Translations under genes and position numbers: made by a program
The notes under the pieces: model-generated
Told to the model about the DNA's origin: nothing
The model's input: only the letters and a program-made list of their open reading frames with translations
The model's database searches: none
In this document: positions 49,256 to 60,927 of the stretch, piece by piece
Numbering within the stretch: position 1 is the stretch's first letter
How the letters are laid out: each line of letters opens with the position of its first letter
Source: an uncultured Poribacteria bacterium
GTDB lineage: Bacteria > Poribacteria > WGA-4E > WGA-3G
NCBI GenBank assembly: GCA_951828515.1
Contig: OX639992.1
Location: 4,442,217-4,506,216 of the forward strand
Reading direction: 5' to 3'
DNA: 64,000 bases

Positions 49256-51847
49256 TTACGGCTCGTCCCCAAAGTCGGGCTCTTTTGCTGGTCGGAGCAC
49301 CCACGCTGCAAAGGCTGCTTCAAAAAATGCTGTCGTGTCTCCGAGGTAGAGGTGCTGGATACTTTCGATCGGAACCGTTATCTCTCCATAGATTGGCGAA
49401 CGTCCCAATAATGCATCATCTTTGACCTCGAGTGGTTCAAAAATCAGAATAGAACCATCGGTTAACCTGATAGATACCTCGTGTTGGCTATCGGCTATCG
49501 GCTTACGGCTTACCGTAGGGGCAAGGTCCCCTTGCCCGTACACTCGTGTGGTAGTTGCAAGCGTTTTGTCTGGTACAACGCTCTCTTGCTGACTGCTGAT
49601 GGCTGATGGCTGATGGCTATTCTGCTGACTGCTGATCGCTTCTCTGCTGACATTGACCACCCGTGCCACACGGTCTATAGGAACGGAGAATTGGCGTAGT
49701 TTAGAATCAAACTGAATCGTGTCTTCATTGAAACCCAGCAGTTTGCCCCGTTTCATATCCCCGTTCTCTGCCACGAGGATATGGTTCGGCGGTGTGTCGC
49801 GGTTAAAACGTGGAACGGTTAACGCACGCTCCAATTTTACGTCTAATTTATAATTTTTAGATATAGAGACCTCTTCAGAGACCATTTCGCCTAAATTCTG
49901 GTCCTGACGGAGTTTGATTTTCTTGCCATCCATAAGGAATATCACATCGCCATCTCTTAACTCTATCTCGCCACCTTCTGCCAGAATTTCCTCCAAGTTA
50001 CCTACGTTACCTTTGAACTGAATTTCATTGATTTCGCGATTATTGAACCGACCCCCTTTTTCCCCCAAAACAATATAAGAAGGTCTGCTGTTTGTCGAAT
50101 AGGTCCTATCAATATAGTTCGCATGTGTTCTACCGGAGAACTCAAGGGCTTTCACATGTGCCGAATCAATCAGGGACGCACTGATAAAAGGAGACTGGAA
50201 ACCAACGCTCATTTCATCGTATGACAAGATTTGACACGGGATGATCTCTCCGCTCTTCAGATGCAATATATGACGGAACTGCGATCCGTCAAAGGGCCAT
50301 GCCTTCGATGACCGCCTATTGTTGCGTTCTATGTGAGCCCTCCGAATCGAACCTCCAACTCGTGCGTTGCTGTCTTGTATCGGAGTCGAGTTGGAGGTTC
50401 GCGCCAATCGTACAGTCTTTGACGCACCGACTGGTTTCCAACGAATGAAAGATCCATCCGCTACGTCGAAGTAAACGCGACCACGAAGATTCCCTGACGG
50501 GTGAAATAATCTATCCTCGTCTTCAATTTGCCCATGATTCTTGGGACCACTGATCTCTACCCGAAGCAGCGAAGCACCCGCAAACACACATGCTATCGGT
50601 TCATTCGCGAACGCCGTCTGCAACAACACACTATCTGGGTTTACTTGCGCAATCTTACCGCGCAAAACCGCACCGTCGGGATATGTCAATGCGACGGGGT
50701 GTTCCGTTTCGACCAACGCAGTACCCGGCTGAACAACACGGTCGATTTGCTGGATATTGATGTCATGCCGATTTCCACCTGCATCAAGAACATAAGTACT
50801 TTCTTGCTCGACGAATAACTTACCATAAACGACGTGCCCATTCATTGTATGGACCCGCGGTTTGGAAGAGTCGATTTGTTGCTTTGTAGAGCCAACAGGC
50901 TGTTGGTAGACCCGTAACCGCCGAACCGTCAGATTCTGACCTCGGTTGTAAATATAGACACCCGATTCCTTAACTGTCTGTCCGACCTCGTCCAATTTCA
51001 GCAACAAGTTGCCGGCAAAATCAAACACCTCCAGTACACCGGTGTCCCCATCATAAGCGAGGCGTAAACGGAAGTTTCGTCGATCCGGCTGGATCGTCAA
51101 CACCGGCTCGAACAGTGTGCCTTGAACAACCACGAGTTCGTTAACCCAAGTCTCCAACCGCAATGCCTCGTATAGATTTTTACCAAGTGCGAAAACAAAA
51201 CCCGGAGGACGCGTGGCAGATGCTAACTCCAAGTCAATCTCAAAACGCTGGGGCCACGCAAGGGCGTGGAAGATTTTTGCCTTGACTTTATCTGTTCGTG
51301 GATGACCGCCCCGATTCGCATACCAACCTGGTCGGGCGTTTCCACCAAACAGCAATATGGGTTGGTTCGTATCCTGTTTGGATAATTCCCAATTCGTCAG
51401 TTGGGAACCGTCGAAGATAAGATTCGGGTGCACTCGACGTTCAAGGGTGTAGATTGACTCACGATTTACTCGAAACCGGCCGTGTCGCTCGCTGGAAAAG
51501 AGAAAGGTCTTCTCATCTGAATCAACTATGTCAGCTATCCAGATATCTCCCGATACAGTGCCGACGCGAAATGCCTCCGTTGCTGGGGCAGACCGCTTTG
51601 GGAAAACAACCGAATCCAATACGCTAATATCAATGACCAGATCGTCCGAAAAGTACGGTGATGACCAGTGAATCATGTCGGATGTGCTTTCCAGTAGCTT
51701 ACCGGGGAGAACATCGCCATTTTTCCAGCGCAATGTTTGCATGTTAGCTTGCAAAGCCTGTGCTTGCTGAGCCTGTATTGTCGGAGTCCATAATACCGCC
51801 AATGTTGCGGCAACAATAAGCAGTCCCTTTAGATTCCATTGCATCAT
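49256..51847 (-). CDS. large secreted protein carrying three in-frame repeat insertions
   Basis: The 863-residue protein has a signal peptide (LLIVAATLAVLWTPTIQAQQ). It contains repeated segments of the type LRWKNGDVLPGKLL, TYPDGAVLRGKIAQV and LKSGEIIPCQILSYD, and RLTDGSILIFEPLEV near the end, suggesting small beta-rich repeats. The middle (FDGSQLTNWELS onward) resembles a concanavalin-like domain. Three repeat families lie in frame: a 54-bp palindrome (residues about 483-500), CTGAC-type repeats (about 733-754) and a GTAGGGGC palindrome (about 769-777). SD AAAGGAGAGG precedes the ATG. It is the last gene of the 49-64 kb operon. Confidence 0.78.
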   Translation of the reverse strand: MMQWNLKGLLIVAATLAVLWTPTIQAQQAQALQANMQTLRWKNGDVLPGKLLESTSDMIHWSSPYFSDDLVIDISVLDSVVFPKRSAPATEAFRVGTVSGDIWIADIVDSDEKTFLFSSERHGRFRVNRESIYTLERRVHPNLIFDGSQLTNWELSKQDTNQPILLFGGNARPGWYANRGGHPRTDKVKAKIFHALAWPQRFEIDLELASATRPPGFVFALGKNLYEALRLETWVNELVVVQGTLFEPVLTIQPDRRNFRLRLAYDGDTGVLEVFDFAGNLLLKLDEVGQTVKESGVYIYNRGQNLTVRRLRVYQQPVGSTKQQIDSSKPRVHTMNGHVVYGKLFVEQESTYVLDAGGNRHDINIQQIDRVVQPGTALVETEHPVALTYPDGAVLRGKIAQVNPDSVLLQTAFANEPIACVFAGASLLRVEISGPKNHGQIEDEDRLFHPSGNLRGRVYFDVADGSFIRWKPVGASKTVRLARTSNSTPIQDSNARVGGSIRRAHIERNNRRSSKAWPFDGSQFRHILHLKSGEIIPCQILSYDEMSVGFQSPFISASLIDSAHVKALEFSGRTHANYIDRTYSTNSRPSYIVLGEKGGRFNNREINEIQFKGNVGNLEEILAEGGEIELRDGDVIFLMDGKKIKLRQDQNLGEMVSEEVSISKNYKLDVKLERALTVPRFNRDTPPNHILVAENGDMKRGKLLGFNEDTIQFDSKLRQFSVPIDRVARVVNVSREAISSQQNSHQPSAISSQQESVVPDKTLATTTRVYGQGDLAPTVSRKPIADSQHEVSIRLTDGSILIFEPLEVKDDALLGRSPIYGEITVPIESIQHLYLGDTTAFFEAAFAAWVLRPAKEPDFGDEP
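49515..49541. repeat. GTAGGGGC palindrome inside a coding sequence
   Basis: GGGCAAGG and CCTTGCCC pair around TCC, framed by GTAG and GTAC. It encodes YGQGDLAPT in the host protein. A relative lies in the intergenic region at about 19486-19511. Confidence 0.7.
49586..49650. repeat. CTGAC/CTGAT-type repeat inside a coding sequence
   Basis: The run GCTGACTGCTGATGGCTGAT continues through several more units and encodes SSQQNSHQPSAISSQQ in the host protein. The same wording recurs in proteins at 55115 and 61042. Confidence 0.8.
50348..50401. repeat. 54-bp palindromic element inside a coding sequence (copy A)
   Basis: Arms 50348-50362 and 50387-50401 are perfect 15-bp complements around a 24-nt loop containing TTGCTGTCTTGTATC. 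Copy B is at 60589-60642. The inner seven arm bases (CAACTCG) and the loop are shared; the outer eight differ between copies. Length 54 keeps the frame. Confidence 0.93.
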
Positions 51848-58668: not shown

Positions 58669-60927
58669 CTATACAGCTCCCGTCATTTTCCTCGCAATCC
58701 AAAACAATCCAAGAAGTAAAATGAGAAGTCCTGCCCAAAGTGGATGTGCCCATATCCGTGTGCGATGCACAGTCGGCTCAGGCTCCGGTAAGGCAGCGAG
58801 ATAATCCAACAGACTTCGCACCTCAGAAACCGGGACTAACTTACCATCTGTAATTTTGGCGATTTCCTCTAATACCTCAAAACGCGCCAAACGCCCCTGT
58901 TGCTCGCGATTTAAACCCTGGACGGACAGATCGGTCTGTACCGAAGCCCCAGTTTCAGTGCTATTGGCAACGAGACGATAGGTGCCAAATTCTTTCGGCA
59001 CAAACGAACCCGTGAATAACCCGATCGCATCTCTTTCACCCGGTTGCAACCGAATTGTTTGTGTTTTACCCGACGGCGAAATCGCCTGCACAACAACCGA
59101 GCCTTTATCCAACGGAGCACCCAATGGATCGTTCACGTTAGCATTTAGCATCACGGTATCATCGACATGTGGGCGATCTGGCGAATAAAACAACCGCATC
59201 GATTCGCCTTGTGCCATCTGCCGACGATACGCCATCCACCGAGCGACTTGGCTCCAGAAGCGGTAGTGATACTTATCCTCAACACCTTGTCGCCAACGCC
59301 ATGCACTATCCGTTCCCATAAACAACACTTTACCCGCACCGTACGTTTTGGTCACAAGAAGCGGTACACGTCCTGAAGTTGTCGCAACCTCGTTATGCAC
59401 TGCTAAAGTCTCTGTACCCGCTTTGGCGCGTTTGATACCAGCATACCAGTAGAAACCCGGCAACGTGCGCCACACTTGGCGGTTAATTTCCGTAGTCTCG
59501 CCGAGGCGAGTTAATAAACTTCGTTGTCCCAACTGTGTAAGCGCGAAATATCCTTGTGTGCCCGAACCAACACCATACGGGAGTGCCGCGTCCAAAACCA
59601 CCGGATAGAGATCCGCAAGCGGACCCGACATCAACGACGCATGCATCCCCGTCCGTCCCGGCATAAAGATGAGTCCAGAAGCCTGAGCACTGACGAGTTG
59701 CCGTAAGTCCTGTGCCTGCGCTATTGTTAACTGTTTCTCTTTGATACCGACATCACCAAGGAACACCACATCATAGTGGCTCAGTTCGTTCGTCGTCGGA
59801 AAACTTTTGATATAACTACGTCCGCCGCCGACCTTGGACAATTTGGGGTGAAAAAGCAGGCATGTCAATTCAACGCCAGGGTCCCGTTCCAACGCGTTAC
59901 GCAAATAACGGTACTCCCATCGTGGGTAGGATTCAACGACAAGGACTTTCAATTGTTCCTTACGCACCGATATCGGCACAGAAATCTCATTGTTTTCCGG
60001 GATTAATTCCTGTGTATCTCGCGGAATACGCATCGTCAGTGTATAATCACCGGTTGCTGGTGGTGTCCAAACCATGTTTTCTTGTGCATGGCTCATAGCG
60101 GGGACACGGATCAGTTTGCTAACGGTTGATTTTTTGTTAATACTGAGCGTAACGTTCACATCCCGGTCCTGCCCCAAAGTGCTGCGAACGACAAACGGGA
60201 TACGAAGTTGCTTATTGACAACCGCATAAGTTGGGGCATCCATACTAACTAATTCAAGATCCGGTAACGGCACTTTACTACCCACTCCAACAGCGAAAAC
60301 AGGTATTCCTCTCATCCGAAACCGTGTAGCCGCCTCGACAGGTGAGTTCCCAATATTCCAATCGCCATCCGACAGTAGCACGACACCGCGAAGGTTTGCG
60401 TGAGTGTCCAAAACCTGCGACAGTCCGGCATTTAAATCTGTTGCCTCTTCCGCTGGATCTAACCGCGAAGAGAACGGTTCAAAGACTACACTGAGATCGT
60501 TGGCATCCGAGGTTTTCCAGACCTCCTCAGATATTAGAGGTTGAATCGTCTCGGCGCGGCTTTTGGGCTTGTTAGAGAGGTTTTGTGCTTGACCCGCAAC
60601 TCGTGCTTTGCTGTCTTGTATCAGAATCGAGTTGCGGGTCAAAATTACATCCCGCGTTTTCATACTGTTAGATCTGTCCCAAAGCACAGCGAGAGTGGAG
60701 TGCCGATCCGGGAGTTGCGTTTTCAACCATTCGGGTTGATTCAGGGTTACAACGACTAAGCAAATCAACACAAAACGCAGTAACTCAAGTACCCCAGTCT
60801 TCTTGCTATAGCCACTGCGCTGCCACGCCAGCCAGCACAATATGCCTGCCACAATGATGACAACCAAGCTCAAACCTAAGAAGGTTCCGCTTGAGAAGAA
60901 TTCAAGATTTCCCTGTTGCTCCTGCAT
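58669..60927 (-). CDS. VWA-domain membrane protein with glutamine-amidotransferase-like fold
   Basis: The 752-residue protein has two N-terminal membrane segments (LSLVVIIVAGILCWLAW; LLRFVLICLVVVTL) and one at the C-terminus. A VWA domain follows, with the metal site DRSNSM (DxSxS) and LRGVVLLSDGDWN. A later segment VLVVESYPRWEYRYLRNAL and VVFLGDVGIKEKQL resembles the amidotransferase-like domain of this planctomycete-type family. A 54-bp palindromic element is inserted at residues about 96-113, just after the MIDAS strand. SD AAAGGAGA comes from the repeat upstream. Members of this cluster are thought to act with MoxR AAA ATPases. Confidence 0.88.
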   Translation of the reverse strand: MQEQQGNLEFFSSGTFLGLSLVVIIVAGILCWLAWQRSGYSKKTGVLELLRFVLICLVVVTLNQPEWLKTQLPDRHSTLAVLWDRSNSMKTRDVILTRNSILIQDSKARVAGQAQNLSNKPKSRAETIQPLISEEVWKTSDANDLSVVFEPFSSRLDPAEEATDLNAGLSQVLDTHANLRGVVLLSDGDWNIGNSPVEAATRFRMRGIPVFAVGVGSKVPLPDLELVSMDAPTYAVVNKQLRIPFVVRSTLGQDRDVNVTLSINKKSTVSKLIRVPAMSHAQENMVWTPPATGDYTLTMRIPRDTQELIPENNEISVPISVRKEQLKVLVVESYPRWEYRYLRNALERDPGVELTCLLFHPKLSKVGGGRSYIKSFPTTNELSHYDVVFLGDVGIKEKQLTIAQAQDLRQLVSAQASGLIFMPGRTGMHASLMSGPLADLYPVVLDAALPYGVGSGTQGYFALTQLGQRSLLTRLGETTEINRQVWRTLPGFYWYAGIKRAKAGTETLAVHNEVATTSGRVPLLVTKTYGAGKVLFMGTDSAWRWRQGVEDKYHYRFWSQVARWMAYRRQMAQGESMRLFYSPDRPHVDDTVMLNANVNDPLGAPLDKGSVVVQAISPSGKTQTIRLQPGERDAIGLFTGSFVPKEFGTYRLVANSTETGASVQTDLSVQGLNREQQGRLARFEVLEEIAKITDGKLVPVSEVRSLLDYLAALPEPEPTVHRTRIWAHPLWAGLLILLLGLFWIARKMTGAV
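60589..60642. repeat. 54-bp palindromic element inside a coding sequence (copy B)
   Basis: Arms 60589-60603 and 60628-60642 are perfect 15-bp complements around a 24-nt loop that matches copy A at 21 of 24 positions. The outer eight arm bases differ from copy A, yet are fully complementary to each other. It encodes RNSILIQDSKARVAGQ in the VWA protein. Confidence 0.93.

Follow-up and report, generated by a model that had tools for sequence, protein, structure and literature searches.

A small palindromic element, probably mobile, inserted in frame into protein genes of one Candidatus Poribacteria genus

Two 54-bp hairpins found in frame in two protein genes of a sponge-associated Candidatus Poribacteria bacterium are likely to be copies of a small, non-autonomous mobile (selfish) palindrome that is multiplying within a single genus of the phylum. 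Both lie in a 64-kb stretch of the genome, the whole of which is referred to here as the window. In-frame palindromes in protein genes have so far been regarded as peculiar to Rickettsia and Wolbachia, with their mode of insertion, and the choice between inheritance and repeated insertion at the same site, left open (PMC3767692). No previous account of such elements in Poribacteria emerged from a literature search that covered few subscription journals. The family described here belongs to a different phylum and is apparently unrelated, yet it invades protein genes in frame, as is seen in Rickettsia and Wolbachia. Since many relatives have been sequenced and the empty sites are clean, its insertion junctions, the renewal of its arms and repeated insertion at one site are directly accessible to study. 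The 18-residue segments carried by conserved proteins, among them MurG and the beta subunit of RNA polymerase, also constitute a natural experiment on insertion tolerance.

Two hairpin copies and their host genes

Each element (Table 1) consists of two 15-nt arms around a loop, with the layout CGAACCTCCAACTCG-24 nt-CGAGTTGGAGGTTCG in element 1 and TTGACCCGCAACTCG-24 nt-CGAGTTGCGGGTCAA in element 2, and all 15 of the 15 arm pairs are complementary in both. The loops are identical at 21 of 24 positions; the two elements share CAACTCG as their seven innermost arm bases and differ at 5 of the outer eight. The original observation, that the window holds two in-frame hairpins with closely similar loops and with arms that differ and yet pair perfectly, is borne out by the sequence. 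Against dinucleotide shuffles, both elements have folding z-scores of -6 to -7, none of 200 shuffles being equally stable. A 15-mer from the loop occurs exactly twice in the window, and a covariance-model scan of its full length found no further good copy, only elements 1 and 2 scoring well (70.8 and 73.1 bits, E ~1e-15).

Table 1. Elements, host genes and two further copies; plain positions refer to the window, those beginning with G000 to the source genome
Feature	Position	Strand	Details
Element 1, 54-bp palindrome	50348-50401	-	left arm 50348-50362, loop 50363-50386, right arm 50387-50401
Element 2, 54-bp palindrome	60589-60642	-	left arm 60589-60603, loop 60604-60627, right arm 60628-60642
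Host gene 1 (P0001), no Pfam family	49256-51847	-	863 aa; element = residues 483-500, replaces one codon
Host gene 2 (P0002), VWA/CARDB-type membrane protein	58669-60927	-	752 aa; element = residues 96-113, replaces one GAC codon
Third copy (L034)	G000:C1:4507601-4507653		upstream of MoxR-type ATPase gene
Copy in TamB-like gene (L018, L361)	G000:C1:4989357-4989410		phase 1

The two host genes sit in one co-oriented gene run on the minus strand, and the elements are translated in frame as RTSNSTPIQDSNARVGGS in host gene 1 and LTRNSILIQDSKARVAGQ in host gene 2. The latter belongs to a BatA/VWA cluster, in which it adjoins a BatA homologue, and its insert lies, as had been proposed, shortly after the VWA MIDAS strand, about 11 residues past the DxSxS strand. 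In an AlphaFold model of the VWA protein, the one protein covered by structure prediction, residues 97-118, which are essentially the insert, have a pLDDT below 50, and the encoded 18-residue peptide is predicted to be left unstructured. The third copy lies about 1.4 kb past the right end of the window, just upstream of its MoxR-type gene; as it adjoins the same BatA/VWA cluster, that cluster contains three copies.

Empty orthologous sites

Filled and empty orthologues were aligned for five genes, namely host gene 1, the VWA gene, murG, pbpC and rpoB. In all five the filled form is longer by 51 nt, a 54-nt palindrome standing in place of exactly one codon, and no target-site duplication is visible at these five resolved genes, where 3 nt are replaced; since the ends of the element are set by the palindrome, part of this replacement could be a later change. 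The site in host gene 1 is empty in all 29 orthologues compared, the codon there being AAC in most relatives. The VWA site is filled in G012, G030, G024 and G034 and, with another subfamily, in G006, and it is empty in most relatives, the closest pair reading GTGGTT-(54 nt)-GCGCAA in the filled G024 and GTGGTT-GAC-ACGCAA in the empty G035. Judged by these orthologues lacking it, the element is an insertion, and comparison of the host proteins with relatives that lack the 18 residues has thus provided empty sites at the two window genes and at three more.

A rule of dinucleotide duplication, first seen at both window sites, fails at murG, pbpC and rpoB. Clean junctions were not obtained for the copy in the TamB-like gene, which lies inside a larger repeat cluster, or for a VWA paralogue in G026, which has no close empty orthologue. 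The murG gene of one genome that is sister to a filled species (L228 in G023) lacks the insert together with two neighbouring codons, apparently through an imprecise deletion.

A dispersed family in one genus

Far from being confined to the window, the element is present in about 38 copies in the source genome (5.85 Mb, one contig), counted as 38 distinct places at E <0.01 in a search with a covariance model built from nine copies. A broader covariance model, which gives up to about 50 matches per genome with some copies counted on both strands, detected it in 32 of the genus's 38 genomes; elsewhere in the phylum, none of the 47 genomes searched has it, 21 of these being from the same family. 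The expectation that the loop and its complementary arms would recur elsewhere in the genome and in relatives, and the likeness originally drawn to the Rickettsia palindromic elements, are upheld by these copies and by the empty sites described above. Neither of the two outcomes named beforehand as counterevidence, the retention of these residues as a protein motif in distant orthologues and a lack of further copies in the genome, was seen. No known RNA family in Rfam matches the element, and the in-gene hosts are, by Pfam, ordinary genes (murG, pbpC, RNA polymerase beta, TPR and others).

Copies are 53-55 bp long, occasionally 72-75 bp, and their loops split into several related types. Among 34 diverse copies 97.1% of arm pairs are intact, and 10 of the 15 pairs have changed on both sides; the double-changed cells number 66 against 17.6 in shuffles, and the covariation score of 0.409 compares with 0.123 in shuffles and no more than 0.089 in slid-partner controls. 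The longer variants, of 72-75 nt (L322, L335 and L344 in G026; L050 and L053 in G000), have an extra stretch near GTTTTTGCTTGGGTGTTTCTT in the loop, and those of 75 nt remain in frame within ORFs.

Orientation and coding compatibility

Of 99 copies surveyed (39 from the source genome and 60 from relatives), 32 lie inside ORFs of at least 200 aa, and these represent 21 loci. The same strand of the element is coding at 19 of the 21, in phase 0 or phase 1 (p ~1e-4 for at least 19 in one orientation, given the open frames), some of the ORFs extending upstream of the likely true start, as at the ribosomal protein S4 locus. All 12 loci in a subset picked by hand, in which the ORF extends 300 nt or more beyond the element in each direction, share that orientation (p ~0.001, from the same open-frame lists). 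The peptide encoded in phase 0 is polar, xxxNSxPIQDSKARVxxx. Outside coding sequence, the reading frame is interrupted by stops in many copies, and the arm most often seen there, TTAACC...GGTTAA, closes with TAA in phase 0; in-gene phase-0 copies have CGAACC or TTGACC-like arms, with the other side compensated. These arms remove the TAA of the common arm, so that the arm variant bears on whether a copy can lie in a gene.

At the S4 locus, in four genomes (L041, L325, L339 and L357), a copy with varying arms lies just upstream of the coding region. It appeared to be coding at first, but we infer a position upstream of the start codon, where it might affect translation of that gene.

Arm subfamilies and the VWA site

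The arms had been described as locus-specific, which did not hold up: CGAACCTCC occurs both at 50348 in host gene 1 and in pbpC, and TTGACCCGC recurs at several loci besides the VWA gene, so that the arms mark subfamilies instead. The VWA site itself carries three loop types (in G000, G024 and G006) at the same nucleotide position, with close relatives such as G035 empty. Those in G000 and G024 share identical arms but differ in loop type; in G006 both the loop and the inner arms, TTGACCAAGAACGCG, are distinct, and apart from this site that type is seen only in G006 and G009. Three loop types at one nucleotide, together with the empty close relatives, make repeated insertion the simplest account, and on these sequences the site has probably been hit repeatedly; recombination between species could also have produced the pattern.

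At this site the arm matches the target at 10 of 11 bases for the G000 and G024 types, a match equalled at a fraction of ~0.0014 of other positions, and at 8 of 11 for G006, and elements of all three loop types begin with TTGACC or TTGATC. The target at 50348, GCGAAC, resembles the arm CGAACC; at pbpC and rpoB no match was found, and at murG only a weak one. With a match at the VWA site and weak or absent matches at the other genes, arm-guided targeting is retained as a possibility and not as a main claim.

Fate of inserted copies

Pairing at orthologous sites is lost mostly one-sidedly, rpoB keeping 10-12 of the 15 pairs and murG 12-15. Compensated changes within orthologous loci (murG, pbpC and others) are few, slightly above chance. 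Change per site among orthologous copies is 0.103 in arms and 0.126 in loops, and no stem-specific conservation is seen at these sites. In four genes dN/dS is 0.73-1.6 in the insert, compared with 0.09-0.23 in the flanks. The inserted copy fits a tolerated passenger whose added peptide is evolving nearly neutrally. Synonymous divergence in the insert is about one-third of that in the flanks, which fits copies younger than the species split, repeated insertion, homogenisation or constraint at the nucleotide level. As for the arms, their subfamily-specific sequences and their one-sided decay make selection for an mRNA hairpin and inverted copying of flanking DNA, the two explanations that had originally been offered for them, both poor ones.

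Mechanism and alternative explanations

A mobile palindrome of the kind we favour would move as a strand folded into a hairpin, with the mobilising enzyme supplied in trans; no transposase linked to the element was found, and the surroundings of the Y1_Tnp genes hold no copy of it. Complementarity of the arms would be fixed at copying, when copying of the hairpin or template switching during replication rewrites one arm from the other, and such rewriting would yield subfamilies whose arms differ in compensated steps. One study reports template switching as making and repairing stems and as a source of compensated stems (PMC8794818), and another reports that it homogenises inverted repeats in coding genes (PMC8604942). 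Insertions into genes would survive only if stop-free, in frame and oriented so as to encode a polar, flexible 18-residue loop, after which the copy would be a passenger. The compensated changes within orthologous loci could also come from selection for the hairpin, which is a point against this explanation, as are the lack of a linked transposase, the low synonymous divergence within the insert and the setting of the element's ends by the palindrome.

In a more elaborate scheme, which we regard as unlikely, the element would be a protein-compatible mobile hairpin guided by its arms to a matching target, where one codon is exchanged for an 18-codon, stop-free hairpin; it would return in different lineages to one nucleotide position with different loop types, as at the VWA gene (G000, G024 and G006 types), and renew its own arm complementarity by hairpin copying. 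If true, this would be a mode of transposition not described for bacterial palindromes.

It is quite unlikely that the elements are REP/REPIN-type units moved by one of the genome's RAYT (Y1_Tnp) transposases. Small palindromes moved by RAYT-type enzymes are already known (PMC3116915, PMC3733652), five Y1_Tnp genes score above cut-off in this genome, and one subfamily of the element is preceded by GTAGCCTGC, which places GTAG upstream. However, the four Y1_Tnp loci inspected with a repeat finder carry their own, different hairpin arrays, none of six Y1_Tnp loci has a significant match to the element model, most copies are without a GTAG tag and many are inside genes. With other hairpins and no copy of the element at the RAYT loci, a RAYT-borne REP was ruled against, and the Y1_Tnp genes are not good candidates as mobilisers.

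Selection maintaining the hairpin for a role in regulating its operons, whether as RNA or as a DNA cruciform, with compensated arms as the signature, is improbable. It could draw on the strong covariation across copies, the compensated changes between some orthologous copies, the low synonymous divergence within the insert and the copies upstream of the S4 gene in four genomes, but it sits badly with the mostly one-sided loss of pairing (10-12 of 15 pairs left in rpoB), with arms that change about as fast as loops, and with the absence of the element at these sites from most relatives.

Very improbable is an insertion machinery that builds locus-specific arms by inverted copying of target DNA, for which the arm-target match and shared TTGACC/TTGATC starts at the VWA site and the resemblance at 50348 would be the evidence. 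Copying of this kind holds for one or two sites at most; identical arms occur at unrelated loci, the targets at pbpC and rpoB show no match and that at murG a weak one, and arm-matched targeting would account for the VWA site without copying. Finally, the reading of the 18 residues as a protein motif conserved for its function is almost certainly wrong and is refuted by the empty orthologues, for although similar peptides (PIQDSKARV) recur in several proteins, orthologues both within the genus and outside it lack the residues, the host proteins are unrelated, dN/dS is near 1 and the reading frame is interrupted by stops in many non-coding copies.

Comparison with known palindromic repeats

Rickettsia palindromic elements, of about 100-150 bp (PMC2229807, PMC3767692), lie in frame in conserved genes, encode a tolerated peptide and lose arm identity over time (PMC2229807, PMC3767692, PMC6649704). 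Like these (RPE-1 to RPE-10), the Poribacteria element is a dispersed palindrome that occurs both between genes and, in frame, within conserved ones, with orthologues that lack it, and in both the arms diverge with time and the mobiliser is unassigned. The Rickettsia peptides fall in tolerant parts of proteins, and the VWA insert, predicted to be unstructured, may do likewise. Unlike them, it is a single hairpin of 53-55 bp with a partly conserved 24-nt loop, and it occurs in another phylum with larger genomes (4.3-6.7 Mb), with clear empty sites and a constant one-codon replacement. By analogy, the best reading is that it works as the Rickettsia elements do, with no sign of common ancestry, and is set apart by size and phylum; being about half as long, from another phylum and of no demonstrated sequence relation, it is not filed among them. 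Palindromic insertions in frame in protein genes, like those seen here, are also known from Wolbachia (PMC4224334). The WPE-like regions differ in length, at about 170 bp or more, in a comparison made by description.

REPs are mostly extragenic, 20-40 bp long, tagged with GTAG/CGTC and situated beside their RAYT. The Poribacteria element resembles REP/REPIN in comprising small dispersed palindromes with compensated stem variants, in a genome where RAYTs are present, but is not beside the RAYTs found, and the flanks of the 99 surveyed copies have no general GTAG/CGTC tag beyond the GTAG of one subfamily. Bacterial MITEs (e.g. Correia/NEMIS, ERIC and RUP) likewise have short inverted repeats, here 15-bp arms, and no gene of their own, and sometimes give in-frame fusions (PMC10969869), whereas the present element is nearly all one hairpin and shows no target duplication at its five resolved sites, and no parent IS came to light. 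In nematomorph mitochondria long inverted repeats also lie inside functional genes, and template switching has been proposed (PMC6649704); there the arms encode native protein, whereas the Poribacteria palindrome is a mobile unit added to the gene.

Other repeats in the genome

A strong hairpin at 821-862 of the window, AGAGGCAAAACTCCAGTCTAAAGACTGGAGTTTTGCCTCT, is unrelated to the 54-bp element. The Y1_Tnp genes (L010-L014) are surrounded by hairpin repeats of their own, several in tandem arrays and each of a different sequence. Host gene 1 and the pbpC ORF of one copy (L019) encode low-complexity in-frame peptides such as SSQQNSHQPSAISSQQ, whose resemblance to the translation of an intergenic repeat, cagttatcagttatcggtt, suggests a second coding-compatible repeat. 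In the TamB-like gene, the copy of the element lies within a larger in-frame cluster of short repeats of the GGTTAAGAGGTTTTCGTTTAAC type; this cluster is absent from orthologues, and several small repeat families would therefore appear to invade genes here.
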